A stretch of DNA of 64,000 nucleotides from a virus: positions 1 through 64,000 of the IMG/VR virus record IMGVR_UViG_3300025009_000089; one strand, given 5' to 3'. The notes under the pieces are model-generated. The model had not been told where the DNA came from and made no database searches. It saw only the letters and a program-made list of their open reading frames with translations. The position numbers were made by a program, and so were the translations under genes. Shown in pieces: positions 4,955-43,011 of the stretch; the stretch's first letter is position 1, and every line of letters begins with the position of its first letter.

Positions 4955-5521
4955 TTAATTTCCTGTAATGTTATCAGTATTAATTTTATTTAACCAATTC
5001 TTAATACACTGACCTGAAGTACTTTTAGTATCACAATCAGGCCAATCTAAGCATTGCTCAGCAGCTAATCTTGTTGCAGCCGCTTCAATGTAATCTGCAA
5101 AACTACCTAAACGATAGTTTTTATAATTTACCATAATATCAGCTGTCCAACAAAGTTTTCGTTTATTGAACCTTACTCCAGTAATACCAGAAGAATTATT
5201 ACTACTTATTTTTGAGTTTCTTGCATTACATTGTTTAGATGCTTCTCGTAAATTAGTTATTCTGTTATTTGCTGGATTTCTATCAATATGATCAAGCCCA
5301 TTTTCTGGTATATATCCATATACATATAACCAAATAATTCTATGAGCAAGATATGGTTTATTATGAATACATACTTTGTAATAACCATAATTATCTATGG
5401 TTTTAACTATGTCTCCTTTAGAAACTCTATGAGCATTTGGATTTTTCCAAATTAGCTCTCCAGTTTCTGGAATATAATTAAATAAATGCTGAACAAGTTC
5501 TTGCGATACTATTGCTTGCAT
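4955..5521 (-). CDS. HNH homing endonuclease with AP2-type DNA-binding domain
   Basis: 188 residues. An N-terminal FNYIPETGELIWKN leads to the HNH core: HRIIWLYVYGYIP, then LDHIDRNPANNRITNLREAS. The second half has SGITGVRFNKRKLCWTADIMV and YRLGSFADYIEAAATRLAAE, an AP2-like three-strand/helix DNA-binding domain. Such free-standing endonucleases nick or cut DNA and spread by homing. The gene is more AT-rich than its neighbours, has its own GGAG site, and ends two bases before the portal start, so it looks inserted in the terL-portal junction without breaking the operon. Same architecture as the genes at 20328 and 36561. Confidence 0.88.
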   Translation of the reverse strand: MQAIVSQELVQHLFNYIPETGELIWKNPNAHRVSKGDIVKTIDNYGYYKVCIHNKPYLAHRIIWLYVYGYIPENGLDHIDRNPANNRITNLREASKQCNARNSKISSNNSSGITGVRFNKRKLCWTADIMVNYKNYRLGSFADYIEAAATRLAAEQCLDWPDCDTKSTSGQCIKNWLNKINTDNITGN

Positions 5522-5633: not shown

Positions 5634-8186
5634 TTAATATCCTGTAACATAATTAGTTTCAGCTTCATTATATTGTGTTGATGCTTCCCAGGCTTCAAAT
5701 TCCCAATAGGGCTTTGCAACTGCTCGCTTCAAGCCAGACATAATCAGATATCGAGTACAGTCCATAAGGTGGTCCTTGTCTTTAACAATCTGACCGTTTT
5801 CATCGCGGCGATAAATCCGAAACTCACTAAACCAATTAACCAGCGAACCAAACACTTTCAGGCGGTTAGTGCTCAGCATTTGCCACACAGCATACAGGCC
5901 GGCTTCAACAGATTTGTTAGCATTCTCGAGGTCAAGGCCTAAACCAAAGTATTGTTCAAAAAGTTGCTTTCCATCATCCTGGGAACGACCATGTGCAGCT
6001 GAATCCACCACGCCTGGAATCCAACTTCCCCTGGCTTTAATAGCATCCGCATGGATCAGTGGCAACTGTTGGCCCTGATAATATTCGGAATACAGATAAG
6101 TTATGTTGCTGGTCGGATCTGTGGCTGCCCAAACAGTTGCCGTCTTCTTCCAGCCAACATCCAACGCATAACAGCGGAGCCAATGATCGGGAATAGCGAA
6201 GTCAGCGACAGTGATATTAGATTCGAGGATTGGATAAATTGCACCAGATCCAAGCTGAGGTACGCCCTTTGACCTGGCGTCTCGTTGATGAGGTGGTAAG
6301 GCTGCCCAGAGTTTATCTTTCTGTTCTTTGGTAAGGTGTGGTGCATCATCCCATGTTGCCTGGATTAAGAATTTACTGCCTTCTTGATTATCCTCAATCT
6401 TTCCGTTCGGCATGAACTGAAGAACAGTATCGGTGAGGCCCTCTAAAGGAGTAAAGGTCAACATGATTAGACCATTCGTTGTCATGGTCCGAGTTATACA
6501 TTCAGTATAGATTGGCAATGGACATTCTTCATCCAGCCAGATTAAATCTTGCTCAGTTCCTTCAAATGACTTGCGACCTTCTGCATATGACTTGATCTTA
6601 ATCCGAGATATACCACCAGAGATATGCTTGACCAAGATCATGTCGATGGCGTTAGCAACTCCACCAGCCTTAGGAGATGTCTTGATTATATACTTTTCTG
6701 GGATGAGTCCAGTACCATACTCTTCGGGATTGCCAATCAGCTTATACTGAACGATGTCACGAGCAGTTGTACTGGTTGTTCCACAGGCCCAGATGGAAAC
6801 TGGCTTGGTGAATCTCTTGCCTGTCCACCAACTTGGATAGCGTCCAGTTGCGTGTAGAGTTGTTTCGTATGCACCAATTCCTTCAGAGTTATGAGTAACA
6901 ATTCCACCAGCAATAATAAATGTATGACTAGCATGATCAACTTCAATACAAGTACAGTCAGAAATTACATCTGGAACAATTGAATATATTAATCTATCAA
7001 ATGAACTTTCTTTATCATTATATCTTTCTTTCTTTCTAGGAAGTTCAAAAGGACAAAATAGAAGCTTAACTGTAATAATATAAGCTAATTGTCCATTCCT
7101 TTTAATTCCATCAGAGTTGGTATATGATTTTATCTTTTCTTTTACAACTGTTTTTCCACCTAAAGACTGAACTAAAGTACAAAAATCATCTTTCAATCTT
7201 GAGGATATTGTAGTATATGACATTGAGTTAGTGGGATTAATATAACCATCAGAATCCATTAAACCAGCTAACAAAGCTTTTCGCTGCTCAATTGAAGAAA
7301 GTAAATAATCTATTGGAATAAATTTAGTATGACTTTTAGTTCCAAGTAAACCAAGTTCTCTTAGATACTGAGTATATTCATTTGGAGCCTTACCAGTATG
7401 TAATCCACCTGGCTTAGATATGCAATAACCAAGATATCCAGCTTCTTTAATTAGTAAGAGATTTTTAGGAATTGTTTTGGCAATTTTTGAAACAATAAAA
7501 TCATCTTGTGTTGAAAATCTTACTCTATCAACAATACTTCCATCCCCTAAAAGAATCCCCATAAAATATGGATCTATAAACAAATTAATTTTATCTAATT
7601 GCCATGCTTGTCCTTGAGGAACTGAAGCACGCATTCTGGCAATAGGAGTTGCTCCAGAATCACCAAGAATGGTTAAAGTATTAGCAACTTTATATTGATT
7701 ATAAAATGGATTTGCTTCTTTTTGTCCATGAGATTGTCTATATGGATATCTTGCATTATAAGGAAGATATTTCCAAAGATGCTCACCACAACATATTACC
7801 TCATCATCTGAATCAAAAGTAATTTTAAAAAGTTGTTTTGGCCCTTGAGGATAGACACCAGTAACTTGAGTTAATGATCCATCACCAGCTATAACTGTTT
7901 CGCCAAGTTTAATATCTTCAATAGCTTTCCAGCCACCGGGAGTAGCTACTTTAGTTCCATGTTTAAGGGCTTTGCCTATGCGGTTTGCAGCCATGATGCA
8001 ACGCTCAGAAAAATCTGCGCCGGCTGCAAAGAACTGCATATGCTTAGGATAGTTATTTCGACTTAGCTCGCCGTCATCTGGATAGTACTGAGTAATCTTA
8101 TTTTGCTTGATCCGGATGTTCTTGGCTTGCAAGAGTTTGAGGTATTGCTCTTTGCGGTCTCTATCAAGGTGGGAAAGATCCATCAT
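5634..8186 (-). CDS. Terminase large subunit (TerL), interrupted by an intein
   Basis: 850 residues as encoded, 489 after removal of the intein (residues 73-433). The exteins rejoin to form the Walker A motif AANRIGK-SEG of the packaging ATPase, followed by Walker B DLIWLDEECP. The C-terminal nuclease half has CYALDVGWKKTA, VDSAAHGRSQDDG and LMDCTRYLIMSG, giving the acidic residues of the RNase H-like headful nuclease. TerL docks on the portal, pumps DNA with ATP and cuts concatemers. Because the insertion splits the ATP-binding lysine from the following serine, unspliced protein should be inactive. The start overlaps the terS stop (TAATG). Confidence 0.92.
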   Translation of the reverse strand: MMDLSHLDRDRKEQYLKLLQAKNIRIKQNKITQYYPDDGELSRNNYPKHMQFFAAGADFSERCIMAANRIGKALKHGTKVATPGGWKAIEDIKLGETVIAGDGSLTQVTGVYPQGPKQLFKITFDSDDEVICCGEHLWKYLPYNARYPYRQSHGQKEANPFYNQYKVANTLTILGDSGATPIARMRASVPQGQAWQLDKINLFIDPYFMGILLGDGSIVDRVRFSTQDDFIVSKIAKTIPKNLLLIKEAGYLGYCISKPGGLHTGKAPNEYTQYLRELGLLGTKSHTKFIPIDYLLSSIEQRKALLAGLMDSDGYINPTNSMSYTTISSRLKDDFCTLVQSLGGKTVVKEKIKSYTNSDGIKRNGQLAYIITVKLLFCPFELPRKKERYNDKESSFDRLIYSIVPDVISDCTCIEVDHASHTFIIAGGIVTHNSEGIGAYETTLHATGRYPSWWTGKRFTKPVSIWACGTTSTTARDIVQYKLIGNPEEYGTGLIPEKYIIKTSPKAGGVANAIDMILVKHISGGISRIKIKSYAEGRKSFEGTEQDLIWLDEECPLPIYTECITRTMTTNGLIMLTFTPLEGLTDTVLQFMPNGKIEDNQEGSKFLIQATWDDAPHLTKEQKDKLWAALPPHQRDARSKGVPQLGSGAIYPILESNITVADFAIPDHWLRCYALDVGWKKTATVWAATDPTSNITYLYSEYYQGQQLPLIHADAIKARGSWIPGVVDSAAHGRSQDDGKQLFEQYFGLGLDLENANKSVEAGLYAVWQMLSTNRLKVFGSLVNWFSEFRIYRRDENGQIVKDKDHLMDCTRYLIMSGLKRAVAKPYWEFEAWEASTQYNEAETNYVTGY
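6888..7970 (-). mobile_element. Intein with LAGLIDADG endonuclease, class 3 signature, in TerL Walker A
   Basis: The intein is residues 73-433 of the terL product, 361 aa. It starts with Ala (ALKHGTKVATPGGWKAIEDI) rather than Cys or Ser, and ends GGIVTHN, with Ser as the first downstream extein residue. Block B reads CCGEHLWKY with Trp138 two residues after His136. Block F reads CIEVDHASHTFIIAG with Cys413. Block G has Thr431 before His432-Asn433. This Trp-Cys-Thr set is the mark of class 3 inteins. Two LAGLIDADG helices are seen, FMGILLGDGSI and ALLAGLMDSDGYI. The DNA is distinctly more AT-rich than the flanking exteins, consistent with lateral arrival. Confidence 0.9.
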
Positions 8187-29986: not shown

Positions 29987-32509
29987 ATGATAATTCCTAG
30001 CATATCAACTACAGCAACTCCGCAGAAAGAAGGTTCTTTCGATTGCTTGGCTGTAGAGTGCGCTCCAACTGACAACATACTTACGGCTGAAATCGCAATG
30101 GTTGGCGAAGCTCCAGGCGAAATAGAAGTCCTGAAGAATGAACCTTTCGTAGGTCCGACAGGATCTCAGCTTAATCGCATCTGTGCAGCAGTCAGACTCG
30201 CAAGATATAAAATCTATCTCACTAATGCTTGCAAAGCTAAGTTACCTAAAAACAATACTGCTGTATTATGGACTGATAAAGGCTACCGCCATCCAGACTG
30301 GAGCAAATTGCAAGCTGCCCTAATCGATGAACTTGCTCAATTTCCAGGCAAAGTAATAATGTTACTCGGCGCTACTCCAATGAGATTATTGTTGGACGAG
30401 CCTAAGTTCGATTCAATCACAAAATATCGCGGTTCTTTCTACCATGCTGAAGACTTCCCACATTTGAAAGACAAACTTGCAGGTAAGATAATCGGTTTGT
30501 CTTATCATCCATCTTTCACCCTCCCATACGGTCAGCCTATCCACTTCTACACGATGATCGCAGACTTTACAAAGGCCCTGCGAATCATTGAAGATCCAGA
30601 ATTGCTTGTTGACAATGTGGAAATAAAAATCAAGCCTAGCTTTGAAGAAATCATGCAGTTCTACGCCTTGATTAAGACAAAGGAATATGTAGCATTTGAC
30701 ATCGAGGCTACGCCAGAATTTATTACCTGTTACTCATTGGCAGTCTATCACGATAACAAGATTCTCTCCATGTCTGTTCCTCTAATGAACAACCAAGGCA
30801 ACTATTGGGCAACAGCAGAAGAGATAAAAATCTGGATTGGACTAGCTGAAATACTTAACAACGAAGCTATCGGCAAGATTTGTCAAAATGGAATGTTCGA
30901 CATCATGTTTACTTTTCGTACCATGATGATTAAAACAGATAACTTTTATTTTGATACAATGCTTGCGCAACACATATGCTATACAGAACTTCCAAAGGGA
31001 CTTGATTATTTAACTTCAACATACACCTACTATCCATATTACAAAGATGAAGGTAAGCAATCACATCTTAAGGCTATCAAAAACTGGCCACAATACTGGA
31101 CTTATAATGCCAAAGACTCAGCCTACTTATTGCCAATAACTGAAAAGCTCCTTGAAGAGTTGGGTGAATTCGATTCTATGGACGCTATGGATTATACAAT
31201 GAACCTCCATAAGCCTCTTATGGAAATGGAATTCAATGGCATCCTGACTGATACAGACGGAATCGAGAAGATCAAATCTGATTATGAAGTCAAACTGATT
31301 GAGCTTCAAGCAGAGTTGAATAAGCTCGCAGGTAAGGAGATTAATCCAGGTTCAGCGAAACAAATGGTTGCATACTTCTATGGCACTTGTATGATCAAGC
31401 CATATGTGAATCGCAAAACTGGATCAGTCACATGCGATACTGTAGCCCTCCACAGAATTGCAAAGAAAGATATTAAAGGATCTGAAGAAGCTAGAATCAT
31501 CATAAAGATTCGTAAGTATCAAAAGATGGTATCTACATACTTTAATATCCAGGTCGATGATGATAAGCGTCTCCGATGTAACCATAAAATCTCTGGAACA
31601 GTCTCAGGCAGGATTGCTACTGAAAAGACTTATTTTGGTACCGGGTCAAACTTGCAGAATCAGCCGTATGTTTTCAAATATTATCTCATTGCTGATGAAG
31701 ATTGGATTCTCTGCGAATGTGATCTTGCAAAGGCTGAAGCTCATGTAGTTGCATACCTAACTCAAGATGCCAACATGATTCAGTCGTTTGAATCAGGAAT
31801 TGATGTGCATAGTTTTAATGCAAGCAAGATATTTAATGTTCCGATTGAAGAAGTAATTCATGAGGCGAAGACTAAAAAGGCTGATCAGAAATCTACTATG
31901 CGTTACATGGGCAAGAAAGTAGTCCACGCATCCAATTATGCAATGGGGCCACAGACATTCTCTGACAACCTTGCAGCTGAGGAAATTTTCAAATCTCAAT
32001 CAGAATGTAAGCGATTGCTTGATAGTTATTCTGACCGCTTTCCTGGGCTGAAACGCTGGCATAGATCAATCGAAGAAGAGGTTCAAAAGAATCGTGTTCT
32101 CTACAACTTGTTCGGCCGGCCTCGTAGGTTCTTAGGTGAAATGAATGCAGCATTATTCAGGAATGCTTATAGCTATAAACCTCAATCAACAGTAGCAGAA
32201 TTGTTAAATCGTGGAATGATAAAAGTAGTAAATGATCCCAGGCTAGGCAAAGATGGATTCGACATTCGCTGCATGACAACTGTTCATGATTCGTTCGTGT
32301 TTCGGTTTCACAAAAGCCAAATTTCAAACCTGCCTCAGATTCTTCTTATCATTAAAGATCATCTAACACACACATTTACTTACAAAGGTAAAAGTTTCAC
32401 CATCGGTTTGGATGCTAAGATCGGTACCCAATGGGCTGGTAACACGGCTGAAATCAGTAAGTTTACTCAAGAAGAATGTGATAAAGCTATTGAGAAGATA
32501 GGTTTTTAA
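29987..32509 (+). CDS. DNA polymerase I with N-terminal uracil-DNA glycosylase-like domain
   Basis: 840 residues. The N-terminus (about 1-190) is a family 4/5-type UDG fold: IAMVGEAPGEIE (40-47), EPFVGPTGSQLNRI, and GLSYHPSF. A 3'-5' exonuclease domain follows with VAFDIEATPEF (about 235) and further Asp residues. The polymerase part has TGRIATEKTYFGTGSNLQNQP, then motif A CDLAKAEAHVVAYL (about 577, in place of DYSQIELR), motif B GKKVVHASNYAMG, and motif C VHDSFVF (about 765). It is probably the replicative polymerase. The altered motif A (Ala-Lys for Ser-Gln) is unusual but keeps the catalytic Asp and Glu. Confidence 0.9.
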   Translation: MIIPSISTTATPQKEGSFDCLAVECAPTDNILTAEIAMVGEAPGEIEVLKNEPFVGPTGSQLNRICAAVRLARYKIYLTNACKAKLPKNNTAVLWTDKGYRHPDWSKLQAALIDELAQFPGKVIMLLGATPMRLLLDEPKFDSITKYRGSFYHAEDFPHLKDKLAGKIIGLSYHPSFTLPYGQPIHFYTMIADFTKALRIIEDPELLVDNVEIKIKPSFEEIMQFYALIKTKEYVAFDIEATPEFITCYSLAVYHDNKILSMSVPLMNNQGNYWATAEEIKIWIGLAEILNNEAIGKICQNGMFDIMFTFRTMMIKTDNFYFDTMLAQHICYTELPKGLDYLTSTYTYYPYYKDEGKQSHLKAIKNWPQYWTYNAKDSAYLLPITEKLLEELGEFDSMDAMDYTMNLHKPLMEMEFNGILTDTDGIEKIKSDYEVKLIELQAELNKLAGKEINPGSAKQMVAYFYGTCMIKPYVNRKTGSVTCDTVALHRIAKKDIKGSEEARIIIKIRKYQKMVSTYFNIQVDDDKRLRCNHKISGTVSGRIATEKTYFGTGSNLQNQPYVFKYYLIADEDWILCECDLAKAEAHVVAYLTQDANMIQSFESGIDVHSFNASKIFNVPIEEVIHEAKTKKADQKSTMRYMGKKVVHASNYAMGPQTFSDNLAAEEIFKSQSECKRLLDSYSDRFPGLKRWHRSIEEEVQKNRVLYNLFGRPRRFLGEMNAALFRNAYSYKPQSTVAELLNRGMIKVVNDPRLGKDGFDIRCMTTVHDSFVFRFHKSQISNLPQILLIIKDHLTHTFTYKGKSFTIGLDAKIGTQWAGNTAEISKFTQEECDKAIEKIGF

Positions 32510-37197: not shown

Positions 37198-37238
37198 GCC
37201 AGAACCTACGATAACTTGTAAGTTCTGGCAATCTTTTT
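37198..37238. terminator. Hairpin terminator between converging operons
   Basis: GCCAGAAC (37198-37205) and GTTCTGGC (37222-37229) form an 8-bp stem. On the plus strand CTTTTTATT follows; on the minus strand the trailing sequence is also T-containing. It separates the early operon from the late gene ending at 37237. Confidence 0.8.
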
Positions 37239-40200
37239 ATTGCACCGTATTTGTTACTTCAAAATATCTTTTCAATATCACCTCTCGTTGCTGTTGCAAC
37301 TGTCCAAGCCTTTCACGAACATTTGTTGTCTGATCAATCTTTTTCAACTTATTAATTACTGCCTGGTTCCGATTTAGTGCGGATTGAAAATTTTCATGCA
37401 CTTTCATTTGTTTGAATCCATCCAGGTTTGAATTCAAGAAAGTTCGCTTGTCTTCCGAGTTTTCAAGTTGCTTCTTGAATATGTCTACTTCCTTGCTGCC
37501 CTTTCCAAACTCTTGTTCGTTGCTAGACTTTTTGTAATCCTCACCTCGTCCGTAATGCCAATAGTAGAGTTTGCCTGCAATCGGAATGGACTCTACAATT
37601 CTGGCATGATCAAAATCTATTGTATCTCCCGTAATGTAAGCTCCATACAATTGGTTAAGATCCTTACTTATGGAATTTACAAATCTGAATGGTGGCAAAA
37701 TTTGTCCTATTAATCCAGATCCTAGCCCCTCTCTAGTAGTCTGCATCCTTACAAACTTTGATGCTCCACCCATAGTTAGAAAGTTTTCAATCACGTTGTC
37801 TTCAAACTTAGTTTCTTTTCCCAACATCCAATCCTTCAATTCATCCGCTCCAGCATTAGCAAGTGTCAGTAAACTCACCAGCTTGATCATGTTACCAATT
37901 CCTTCAATAACCTGATCCCGTTCGCCAGTCTTAATTTTGTGCCAGGCTTCATTTCGGAAAACATCAAACTGTTTGAGTGTGTATGTCTTGAGCATATAAA
38001 ATACTCGACCATTTCCACTCTTTAGGTATTGCTCTGACATTTCAGAAAGCGCCACAGGCTGGAAGTCAAGCAATCTATGATACAACAACATCTTTACATT
38101 GTCTGTTGGATTGTTTGCAAGCAAATCATTTATTACACTCTCAGACTGTGTACCAAATATTGGCTTGATTTCCTTCAATAATGTTTGCCGTCTATCCTCA
38201 GTGCTGGCCATAGCTTTGTAGTTACTAAATGCATTGTTGATCAATGTCTCCTTGCCTATCGAATCAATTCTTTCAAGTCCGACTTTTTTAAATACCCAAC
38301 TTACTGCATTTCCTAACGTAGTTCCATCTGCAAATTCCTGGGCTATCCTTTCAATCCCGAGGTCTTCCTTAGTTATTTCAGACTTCTTAGTTATGGCCTT
38401 ACCAACATTCTTAATCGTATCAGCAAGTCCACGTGGTGTCCATACTTTGCCAACATACATCGCCCAAGCCAAATCACCAATCTGAGTCAGCGCAGATATA
38501 GGCGAACCCATCACGTCGATGTATGACATATTTTTGTATGCATTAACTATTCCTGTAGCTCCATGTTCGTGGAATCTAGCATCAAGAATATCCCTAACTA
38601 CTTTTTCATCATCTGCTTGGATTCTACCAGACATTCGCAAGTCATTAATATATGTTCCAATATTCTCAGTGTAATCTCTTTGCAGTTTGTACTTATCCAA
38701 TTCTTGTTCAATTCGCAAGAGGTCGCCAGAAACATCTTCTATGCGTGCAGTATTGTTGGATTTTTCATACTCTGTGAGCATTACCTGCTTTCGTTTCTTC
38801 TCAGTCTTCAGGGTTGCTATTCTTTCTGGAACCTTACCAAAGAAACGTCTTGCTTCTATTTTCTTCGTCATACTATAGATGTATTGCATCAATGCTGCAT
38901 CACTATCCATGTAGAACTTATTCAATTCTGGTGGAACAGTTTCATATTGCCTGGCTTGAATGTTTCCTGGTCCACCAAGTCCTAGGTTCCTGCCAAGTAT
39001 TGTGTTGCTTGCAATATCTGCTGCCTGTTCAGGATATTCAATCTCAAACTTTTCAACTGTCATACCCAGTTTGTCTGCATAAACTTTGATTGCATCAGTA
39101 ATAACTGGGCGTTGAGAAATTCCTTTAGTTGCCTGCAAGAAGCCTTCTTGATCCTTGATTATGCGAGGCCAGTATTCTTCGATAAAACCTACGTCGTAAC
39201 CAACATCAATTGCATCCTGACGAATTTGATCCAAGACTGATCGTAACTTTTCTTGATCAGCAGCCATGTTGTACTTTGCTGCAATCTCTTTTATCTTAAC
39301 CTCGTCTGAATTTCTCCTCGCTGCATCCCAAACAAATTTGTCTTGCGGACTCATTTGCTTAGTCTTCTCAAGGAGTGGATGTGCAATTCGTAATGCAGTT
39401 ACAATCTTTTGGGCTGTCCGAAAGTCGAGGTTTCTAATCTCTGAACGGAGCATTGGATCTACATTCTTAAGTCTAGTTGATATAGACCCCAATCCCTTGT
39501 CGAGGAGTTGCTTAATTTCATGTCCACGCATACGAAGAGTCTGGCCGATTGTACGGACCAAACTATTTCGTTCGCTGAACATTTGATGATAAACATCATC
39601 GCTAATCTTCTGAACTGGGGCTTCACGAACCTCGAACATAGGCATACCTTCACGGAGTGCCTCAGCTTGGCGCTCATAAAGCTTTCCGCTTTCTACTTCA
39701 CGAGCTAAACCAGAAACAGTCTGCTTACCAAAGCTTAATAACTGCTGGAAGAAGTCCATTACTCGTTGAATCACTTTACCAAACGCAGTGTTTCTGTATT
39801 CTGCTCTGTTGACCATAATCTGCGCGAACATGTTCGCACGATTTTCAACCATCCTCTGCTTCGTATCTTTGTGAGTACTCAGAGCAAAATCAAGCTTACC
39901 TGCTTTGCGAAGTTTATTAAACTCCTTATTCAATGCACTATCATCAGCTTCTGTAATCAGCCCAAGATTGTCAAGGACATGCTTGTTCTCATGCCAAAGA
40001 GTCTTGTTGTCTGCAAAGTTTTCATCAAGAAGAATCTCATTTCCAATCGTAATGCCAAGAATTTTTCCATCCTTTGACATCTGCCCAGTTTCAATTGCTA
40101 ACTTAACAAGACCTTGACCAGCTCCTTGAATACTATTAATTGTTAAACCTTGACCATTCTTAAATCTAACTGATATTGTTCCATCAGTAGATTGATTTAT

Positions 40201-43011
40201 TTCTTGTACTGGAAAAGCTAGTTTAATATCAGCAAAATTTACTTTACCTAAGGCTTCTTGATTTTCAGTTGTTTGAAACTGTGAATTAAAATCTTTTCCT
40301 GCAGCATCTCTACTAACAGGAAAAGCTACTTGATTTTTTCCATTTTGACTTATTAATGTTGTGGGCCAAGAATCTTTATAATCAAATTTATTTGGATTAT
40401 TTTGTTCACTCCAACGAATAGAAGTTGCTCTAAAATCTACAGGAATTGTTTTATATCCTAATGCTTTTAAAGCTCTTGCTCTATGTCTACCTTCATGCCC
40501 AATAACTTTTGGATTATTTATATCATCAGTATTAATTAAGAGATATGGAACATCACTAAATTTAGTTCCATTTTGAATAAGTTCTTGAATACCATCTGCT
40601 TTATCTTCACTCTGGCCTTCTTCAGCGAGTAAAAGAAAATCATCAATTGACATACTAATCAATTTAGATCTAGACTTAAATCCTGTTGTACTTTTATCTT
40701 TAATTACTTTTTGATCAAAAAGTTTTTCAACTGCTTGCTCTTCACCTACCTGAAACTGTGGAGCACTACCTACTTGCCGTTCATTAGTGAACCTACTCTG
40801 CAAACCTCCAGGCAAGTTTCTAGGAACCTCAGTTTCAACTGATTGCCTATTTGATGTCGGAATATCTCCGAGATCTTTAGCAATTTGTTGAAACCATGCT
40901 TGACGTTTGTTCTGCTTAGCTAAAGACGTAACAACATTTTGTTTTGCTCCAGCTTGTGCTGCTGTATCACTTTTGACATTACCTTCAATATTAGCAAGCT
41001 GTGTCTCAAAGAACTTCTTCCGCATGAACGCTTCTGTTCCAGGAGTCATTTCTTCTCGGCGAAGAGTTAGTTCCTTCTTAATGCTTTGCCAATAATTTTC
41101 AATAATAGCCTGCTCTGGAGGAGTAAACCTTTCACCAATCTTTCTTATATAATTTGCATAATCTTCAATCTGTTTTAAATTATTTTCTTCAAGCGGTTTA
41201 AGTGTTTGCTGTTCAGAATCTAATGTTTGTTGATCAGATTTGAGCTTAATTAAACCATTTGCATAATTAGCCATTTCTACAGGCAATAAATTATTAGCCT
41301 CAAAATTTTGAAAAGATTCAGCAGCATCTTTTTCTATACCAACCTTCTCTCCTACATTTACTGTCCCAAAAAGTTCTTCAAGATATTTCTGCCTACCATC
41401 TCTAGTAGTGTATGGAGCAAAAGCCTTCTTAACCTCAGGCGTTTCTTTATCAAGTAACTCATTACGCCTTTTGTTCAATGTAATAAGTTTATCTTCAATT
41501 ACTTTTCTTTCTTCTACACTAGGTGAAGTTTTAGCATCTAATGCATATGGATCAAACTTTTTATTATATTGTTCAGAGAGAGTTGTAATCTCATTATCAA
41601 TATTTGTAATCCTTTCATTAAGCTGGCTTGCATCAGCAATTCTCTTCTCAGCTAACTTATTTTCAATTTCTTTTACTTCCTTCTCTTCAGGAGAAAGAGC
41701 TTCATATTCCTTCTTAGCAAGTTCTTCTTTCTTCTGTATTCCAGAATTAATTCGATCTAAAAGGTTCTGACTATTTTTATTATCTTCAATAGTCTTCCTA
41801 ATCAATTCAGCCGGATCAACATTTAACTCTCTGGCCTTCTGATCAAGTTTATAAGGATCATCAAGAATTTCTTTATTTAAATTAAGAGTTTCATTTAAAG
41901 TTTGAATACTCTTAGCAAGTTCATCTTCTTTCAAATTAAGAATATTCGCCGCTCTTCTGTCAAGCTCAATCTCTGCATCAGTCTTTCCAGGTCCAGGATC
42001 TTTTGCTTGTGTAGAGAAGCCTGCATTAACTGCTGCACCAGCCCCACCGCCTACAGCACCAGCGGCCATGCTTTCAATAATGCGTTCAATATTATCAGCA
42101 GTCAGTAACTTCTCATCTGTATTTGCTACAGTATTAAGAACACTAAGCAGCTCTTGCCCACCTTCCTGCAGGGCTTCTTGAGGAATGTTTGTAAGCAATT
42201 CCTTTGCAGATTTTTTAACCATTCCAGTAGAACCCTTACTCAGAGCATCTACAAATGTATCTACTAACTTACTATTACCACCAGCAAACTCTAGTGATGT
42301 TGCCAAAGCACCAAACAGTAAGGCAGTCTCAGGAGCATCAATGCCTTTTTCTTGTAACAACTCTGCATACATTCCACCAGACTCAAGTGGCATCACTGAT
42401 CCAGCAATACCAACCTTGCCACCAAACTTCTTCAGTGCCTGGCCAGTAAGTTGCTTTCTTACTTGATTTTCTGTTAAGTCACCAATTCCACGTTTAACTG
42501 ACTGCTTAATAGCTTCATCAATTCCTTTCTTAAGCAAAGTTCTGCCTGCCAAACCACCAACAACAGTACCTGGACCAGGAGCTATAACAGATCCAGCAAT
42601 CGCACCTACTGCTGCTTCGGCCATACTTGGAACAAGTTCACCTAAAGTTCCTTGTGCCCAGTCAACAGCACCACCAATTCCAGTTTCACCAGTATAAATA
42701 TCTTTAAAGGAATGTTTCTTAGGATACTGTTTGGCTTCTTCAATATTTCTATTATAGCCTTCCATACCAAAGTCTTGCAAATTCTGGCCAACAGATTCAG
42801 CACCAAGCTTTTTCAATCCTGATCCTGCAAGTGCAGTAGCACCATATGCAGATGCTTGAAGATTCTGAAGTCCTCTTTGAACACCAGGTATGAAATCAGA
42901 ATCAGTTGATGCAGGTTTATTTACTGACTCAGCAGCACCAAACATCTTAGCAAACTCGTCTGGTTCATCTTCATTACTAATTCCAAACATCTTATCAAAC
43001 TCATCCATCAT
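37237..43011 (-). CDS. Giant internal virion/ejection protein with metallopeptidase and ParB-like motifs
   Basis: 1924 residues. The N-terminus has a doubled DEFDKMFG/DEFAKMFG motif, then a Gly/Ala-rich hydrophobic part (VGAIAGSVIAPGPGTVVGG). A long coiled coil spans about 340-720. Near 838 GHEGRHRARALKAL marks a ParB-like fold, and at 1007-1011 LWHENKHVLDNL carries HExxH, a zinc metallopeptidase signature with a later Glu-rich helix. The C-terminus (GNGRVFYMLKTYTLKQFDVFRN) is helical and conserved in phage. Large proteins of this kind are packed in podovirus heads and ejected into the host. The region 40140-40720 is AT-rich and may be an insertion. Confidence 0.75.
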   Translation of the reverse strand: MMDEFDKMFGISNEDEPDEFAKMFGAAESVNKPASTDSDFIPGVQRGLQNLQASAYGATALAGSGLKKLGAESVGQNLQDFGMEGYNRNIEEAKQYPKKHSFKDIYTGETGIGGAVDWAQGTLGELVPSMAEAAVGAIAGSVIAPGPGTVVGGLAGRTLLKKGIDEAIKQSVKRGIGDLTENQVRKQLTGQALKKFGGKVGIAGSVMPLESGGMYAELLQEKGIDAPETALLFGALATSLEFAGGNSKLVDTFVDALSKGSTGMVKKSAKELLTNIPQEALQEGGQELLSVLNTVANTDEKLLTADNIERIIESMAAGAVGGGAGAAVNAGFSTQAKDPGPGKTDAEIELDRRAANILNLKEDELAKSIQTLNETLNLNKEILDDPYKLDQKARELNVDPAELIRKTIEDNKNSQNLLDRINSGIQKKEELAKKEYEALSPEEKEVKEIENKLAEKRIADASQLNERITNIDNEITTLSEQYNKKFDPYALDAKTSPSVEERKVIEDKLITLNKRRNELLDKETPEVKKAFAPYTTRDGRQKYLEELFGTVNVGEKVGIEKDAAESFQNFEANNLLPVEMANYANGLIKLKSDQQTLDSEQQTLKPLEENNLKQIEDYANYIRKIGERFTPPEQAIIENYWQSIKKELTLRREEMTPGTEAFMRKKFFETQLANIEGNVKSDTAAQAGAKQNVVTSLAKQNKRQAWFQQIAKDLGDIPTSNRQSVETEVPRNLPGGLQSRFTNERQVGSAPQFQVGEEQAVEKLFDQKVIKDKSTTGFKSRSKLISMSIDDFLLLAEEGQSEDKADGIQELIQNGTKFSDVPYLLINTDDINNPKVIGHEGRHRARALKALGYKTIPVDFRATSIRWSEQNNPNKFDYKDSWPTTLISQNGKNQVAFPVSRDAAGKDFNSQFQTTENQEALGKVNFADIKLAFPVQEINQSTDGTISVRFKNGQGLTINSIQGAGQGLVKLAIETGQMSKDGKILGITIGNEILLDENFADNKTLWHENKHVLDNLGLITEADDSALNKEFNKLRKAGKLDFALSTHKDTKQRMVENRANMFAQIMVNRAEYRNTAFGKVIQRVMDFFQQLLSFGKQTVSGLAREVESGKLYERQAEALREGMPMFEVREAPVQKISDDVYHQMFSERNSLVRTIGQTLRMRGHEIKQLLDKGLGSISTRLKNVDPMLRSEIRNLDFRTAQKIVTALRIAHPLLEKTKQMSPQDKFVWDAARRNSDEVKIKEIAAKYNMAADQEKLRSVLDQIRQDAIDVGYDVGFIEEYWPRIIKDQEGFLQATKGISQRPVITDAIKVYADKLGMTVEKFEIEYPEQAADIASNTILGRNLGLGGPGNIQARQYETVPPELNKFYMDSDAALMQYIYSMTKKIEARRFFGKVPERIATLKTEKKRKQVMLTEYEKSNNTARIEDVSGDLLRIEQELDKYKLQRDYTENIGTYINDLRMSGRIQADDEKVVRDILDARFHEHGATGIVNAYKNMSYIDVMGSPISALTQIGDLAWAMYVGKVWTPRGLADTIKNVGKAITKKSEITKEDLGIERIAQEFADGTTLGNAVSWVFKKVGLERIDSIGKETLINNAFSNYKAMASTEDRRQTLLKEIKPIFGTQSESVINDLLANNPTDNVKMLLYHRLLDFQPVALSEMSEQYLKSGNGRVFYMLKTYTLKQFDVFRNEAWHKIKTGERDQVIEGIGNMIKLVSLLTLANAGADELKDWMLGKETKFEDNVIENFLTMGGASKFVRMQTTREGLGSGLIGQILPPFRFVNSISKDLNQLYGAYITGDTIDFDHARIVESIPIAGKLYYWHYGRGEDYKKSSNEQEFGKGSKEVDIFKKQLENSEDKRTFLNSNLDGFKQMKVHENFQSALNRNQAVINKLKKIDQTTNVRERLGQLQQQREVILKRYFEVTNTVQ

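Follow-up and report, generated by a model that had tools for sequence, protein, structure and literature searches.

What kind of element splits the ATP-binding Walker A motif in the gene for a phage large terminase subunit (TerL), and does it do more there than splice itself out and spread? We addressed this question in a 64,000-nt window (positions 1 to 64,000 of record IMGVR_UViG_3300025009_000089) taken from the 68,440-base contig of an uncultivated tailed phage. The element is almost certainly a bifunctional class 3 intein, consisting of a Hint splicing domain with an inserted LAGLIDADG homing endonuclease, that interrupts Walker A in a TerL of the Terminase_6 type. The locus is laid out below; precursor residues Trp138, Cys413 and Thr431 correspond to intein residues Trp66, Cys341 and Thr359.

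5634-8186, minus strand: terL precursor gene (N-extein, intein and C-extein), a single open frame running from 8186 to 5634, with 850 codons plus stop
7971-8186, minus strand: N-extein, 72 residues, ending in AANRIGK (the first half of Walker A), delimited by alignment to empty alleles
6888-7970, minus strand: intein, 361 residues, Ala1 to Asn361 (precursor residues 73-433), an exact gap against intein-free TerL alleles, with a structure model at pLDDT 94.8
7773-7781, minus strand: block B His64-Leu-Trp66 (precursor His136 and Trp138), aligned to the HLW of gp41-1_WCT (6riz)
7539-7571, minus strand: LAGLIDADG motif 1, PYFMGILLGDG, read from the sequence and aligned to yllGlwiGDG of PI-SceI
7245-7274, minus strand: LAGLIDADG motif 2, LLAGLMDSDG, read from the sequence, with Hom_end and LAGLIDADG_3 matches
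6948-6950, minus strand: block F Cys341 (precursor Cys413), the predicted first nucleophile, invariant in 43 relatives, unlike Cys339
6888-6896, minus strand: block G Thr359-His360-Asn361 (precursor Thr431-His432-Asn433), invariant in 43 relatives
5634-6887, minus strand: C-extein, 417 residues plus stop, starting at Ser434 (+1) in SEGIGAYE, delimited by alignment to empty alleles

The exteins identify the host protein, matching the Pfam domain Terminase_6N (E=5.8e-19) and, in PHROG, several families of TerL. A C-extein search of IMG/VR yielded 80 loci, many of them more than 95% identical in protein, and the insertion site could be read in 76 contigs, including the window. The site is empty in 67 of these, holds a 361-residue intein in five and holds a mini-intein of 158 or 195 residues in the remaining four. 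The empty alleles read AANRIGK/SEGIGAYE or close variants, with neither an extra nor a missing residue at the site; taking out the intein therefore leaves Walker A complete, with the NRIGKS junction that they share. Many intein-free relatives have a C-extein 96-97% identical to that of the window. The DNA of intein-free L010 and L026 is collinear with the window on both flanks (~85-91% identity), skipping at that site just the intein segment. Isolate phages, including EBPR podovirus 1 and Chlorobiaceae phage CV-1-33, also carry an uninterrupted motif, with Thr replacing Ser in several.

These alleles fix the insertion point between Gly-Lys and Ser of Walker A, with Lys72 preceding the intein and Ser434 following it. 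A sequence-only reading of this DNA had proposed the same insertion, and had named intein-free homologues that fail to match at Gly-Lys/Ser as the observation that would overturn it; the empty sites and the isolate phages do match there. Its coordinates (6888-7970, given with no strand) agree to the base with the reading frame and the empty-allele boundaries on the minus strand, as do its Ala start, THN end and following Ser (Ala73, Thr431-His432-Asn433 and Ser434). It had also described the intein as AT-rich relative to the exteins, which is borne out by GC contents of 31.9% for the intein and 45.2% for the exteins, compared to 40.4% for the window.

We considered contig L002/L005 as an independent second occurrence and rejected it; over a 7,196-bp stretch it has 100% identity with the window, and we therefore treated the two as one virus. 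Only three distant relatives emerged when one genome per bacterial or archaeal species was scanned, and we therefore make no host inference. The TerL of Podoviridae sp. ct2G2228 (MW202785) is split in its annotation into two ORFs (L086, 1878-3510), with a frame break past the ATPase domain.

Class 3 inteins do not require a nucleophile at position 1 and are distinguished by Trp at B:12, Cys at F:4 and Thr at G:5, with Ser or Thr at +1 (PMC5222942, PMC7664689 and PMC5050341; we took our definitions from these and PMC7891396). The boundary set by the empty alleles puts Ala73 at intein position 1, and not a Cys, Ser or Thr nucleophile. Trp138 lies two residues past the block B His (His136-Leu-Trp138), at B:12; Cys413 replaces Asp at F:4; and Thr431 occupies G:5, followed by His432-Asn433 and then by Ser434 at +1. 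A PDB profile search aligned the Trp and the Cys with those engineered into gp41-1 to mimic class 3 (6riz: C1A, F65W and D107C). Across 43 aligned inteins, Cys341, Thr359, His360 and Asn361 are invariant, whereas many have A, V, S, M or T in place of Cys339, which together with Cys341 makes up the CTC motif. We rejected this second Cys (precursor Cys411) as an alternative nucleophile, as it varies in the family whereas Cys413 does not. His64 and Trp66 are invariant among the scanned loci as well, but that count is biased because the scan pattern contained CCGEHLW; the arrangement HLW...C...THN also occurs in isolate phages SPLA3, PhiPA3, N1M2 and FishSpeaker, which were found by similarity alone.

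The intein matches Pfam Hom_end (E=1.3e-7) and LAGLIDADG_3 (E=4e-5), both within their cut-offs, and both motifs keep their acidic residues (LLGDG and LMDSDG). Structure prediction with AlphaFold2 on the lone intein sequence was unusable (pLDDT 33); repeated with the 43-sequence family alignment, it produced a Hint plus LAGLIDADG model with a pLDDT of 94.8 and a pTM of 0.92. The fold matches PI-SceI and I-DmoI; PI-SceI, which likewise joins a Hint domain to a LAGLIDADG endonuclease, is the best solved match (E 3e-20). The class 3 entries 6riy, 6bs8, 6rix and 6zgq match the model at E <1e-3. Thus, the earlier assignment to class 3 is supported by alignment, intein-free homologues, the structure model and solved class 3 matches. 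Its residues Trp138, Cys413 and Thr431 are correct in precursor numbering and fall in the expected blocks, and both of the LAGLIDADG motifs that it mentioned are present (FMGILLGDG and LLAGLMDSDG).

The distribution and divergence of the intein bear on how it came to occupy this site. Occupied sites are scattered across the TerL tree, on which the full intein requires at least four changes. Between the window and contigs L003 and L004, pS is 0.54-0.55 for the intein and 0.73-0.77 for the C-extein, a comparison limited by saturation and by the differing base composition of intein and extein, and it points to inteins that have diverged less than the genes that house them, the pattern predicted for horizontal transfer. 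The endonuclease has a dN/dS of 0.12-0.28 in all pairs, which argues for an endonuclease that was functional recently, and purifying selection acts on both intein functions. In three relatives with a mini-intein (L012, L017 and L018), the host C-extein is 97% identical to that of the window and the splicing domain just 58% identical; consequently, that mini-intein and the window's intein probably arrived separately. No clear co-conversion tract, seen as raised identity beside the insertion, was found when the window was compared to five empty alleles and one mini-intein allele. Taken together, the presence of empty, 158-residue mini-intein and full alleles in closely related phages and the lower synonymous divergence of the intein compared to TerL point to a horizontally moving element.

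The mini-inteins of L012, L017, L018 and L046 (158 and 195 residues) are endonuclease-free class 3 inteins at the exact site of the 361-residue inteins, and such small natural class 3 mini-inteins may be useful in protein engineering. A free-standing HNH endonuclease gene (4955-5521, minus strand; HNH_3 E=1.9e-16) lies directly downstream of terL and is absent at the same place in close relatives L010, L026 and L012. It is probably a second homing element adjoining the intein-bearing gene. In L055, which also has a full intein, terL is likewise followed by an HNH gene, 47% identical to this one.

Splicing chemistry has been established for other class 3 inteins (PMC5222942), and the same sequence of steps would apply here. 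Cys413 in block F would attack the Lys72-Ala73 peptide bond and take the N-extein as a thioester, the N-extein would pass to Ser434 at +1, and Asn433 would cyclise, rejoining the exteins as ...NRIGKSEGIG... and re-forming the ATPase site. Homing is predicted to begin with a cut by the endonuclease near the GK/S codons of an intein-free TerL allele, and repair of that cut would copy the intein in. Because the precursor separates the Walker A Lys and Ser, its ATPase activity should need splicing, and a RadA P-loop intein is cited in PMC6195587 as blocking ATPase activity. By this analogy, it is a reasonable inference that TerL ATPase function, and hence packaging, depends on splicing.

Two alternatives question whether the element is a working class 3 intein at all. 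One holds that it is a class 2 intein or a bacterial-intein-like domain, which starts with Ala and uses direct attack by the +1 Ser, and that the Trp-Cys-Thr set arose by chance. Ala1 is indeed common to class 2 inteins, but these have direct +1 attack and no block F Cys or Trp-Cys-Thr set (PMC5222942, PMC7664689), and the block B Trp, block F Cys and block G Thr are all present here, with Cys413 invariant; moreover, the clean empty-site junction means that TerL is rejoined. We regard this alternative as extremely improbable. The other holds that the intein has decayed and lost the ability to splice, so that this phage has a dead TerL. Splicing here is predicted, and from a metagenome-derived contig, but the catalytic residues and both LAGLIDADG motifs are all intact, the frame has neither stop nor frameshift, and both extein and intein are under purifying selection. 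In particular, the C-extein dN/dS of ~0.05 against empty alleles fits a working TerL and therefore a precursor that still splices, which leaves the decayed intein with scarcely any chance of being correct.

A further alternative accepts the class 3 intein and adds a regulatory role, whereby TerL stays inactive until the redox state or the stage of infection lets Cys413 start splicing, so that packaging is delayed or made conditional. The Walker A insertion would indeed make TerL activity depend on splicing, and a disulfide on the catalytic Cys blocks the class 3 P-loop intein DnaBi1 of M. smegmatis (PMC6195587). Cys132-Cys133 and Cys411-x-Cys413, two Cys pairs close to the active site, are also kept in every intein at this position of TerL, including the mini-inteins. 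However, splicing was fast for five TerL inteins of mycobacteriophages placed in a reporter (PMC5050341), Cys411 varies in the wider family, and a scattered distribution fits a parasite. Most near relatives have no intein (67 of the 76 readable sites are empty); since their gene is uninterrupted, the lineage needs no intein to regulate packaging, and the many empty alleles argue against any required role of the intein in packaging control. The late control suggested in the sequence-only reading thus finds no support here, and overall, we consider a regulatory switch very unlikely. Its specific form, in which the two Cys pairs kept even in diverged mini-inteins act as a redox trap and keep TerL switched off up to the late stage of infection, is a highly doubtful proposition; if true, the intein would set the time of packaging in its carrier phages.

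A class 3 intein that interrupts a terminase has several known counterparts. A 2020 count gave 1701 class 3 inteins, 82.5% of them with LAGLIDADG motifs (PMC7891396), and in mycobacteriophages TerL is the most frequent intein host and the P-loop Lys/Thr has been called the 'classic' site (PMC5050341). Our intein joins a class that already numbers far more than a thousand, at the favoured P-loop Lys/Ser site. Plasmid pCQ4 provides a same-site precedent in a terminase family protein. Regions spanning at least 80% of our intein are present in 558 phage records, all at less than 60% identity.

One counterpart is mycobacterial DnaB intein 1 (Msm DnaBi1, MchDnaB1; 6bs8, 6rix, 6riy), which shares the class 3 signature, Ala1 and the Gly-Lys/Ser P-loop site (flanks FGVGK/STLGL; PMC5222942) and whose splicing domain matches ours in sequence and fold. 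It differs in its host, the replicative helicase DnaB, in being a mini-intein with no endonuclease and in having DxxH in block B instead of CxxH. The TerL intein of Vibrio phage JA-1 (YP_008126830.1, annotated 'intein-containing') likewise has an Ala start, a THN end and a block F Cys, is of the LAGLIDADG type and is inserted after the Walker A Lys (GIAK/T, +1 Thr). However, it belongs to another TerL branch (Schitoviridae) and lacks Trp at B:12 (DHINIV compared to EHLWK), making it class-3-like. The mycobacteriophage inteins TerL1-a to -e and TerL6-f also occupy the TerL ATPase domain; TerL1-a lies between the P-loop Lys and Thr, and TerL1-c, -d and -e are class 3. Unlike ours, the named TerL1 class 3 inteins lie outside the P-loop, and the one in a Terminase_6 protein (f) interrupts the C-motif instead of Walker A (PMC5050341). 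PI-SceI, the yeast VMA intein (1vde, 1lws), shares the two-domain architecture but is class 1 and resides in a cellular host protein. Finally, a single-sequence search of the PDB matched the splicing domain best to gp41-1 and its engineered WCT form (6qaz, 6riz), although natural gp41-1 is class 1 and the WCT form does not splice productively (PMC7664689).

Within one phage group, this TerL site exists in three states, empty, with a mini-intein or with a full homing intein, and some of these alleles have C-exteins ~97% identical to one another. This allele set offers a close view of the cycle of intein invasion and loss, and its intein-free members are matched controls for experiments on whether packaging is affected by an intein in the P-loop.

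Elsewhere in the window, the minus strand encodes a 1924-residue protein (37237-43011) with no Pfam match at E<=0.001, and a protein with a Tad2-like domain (2035-2568; Thoeris anti-defence 2-like, PF11195, E=1.1e-22), a possible anti-defence gene. A family A DNA polymerase at 29987-32509 on the plus strand combines N-terminal uracil-DNA glycosylase superfamily and 3'-5' exonuclease domains in one protein.
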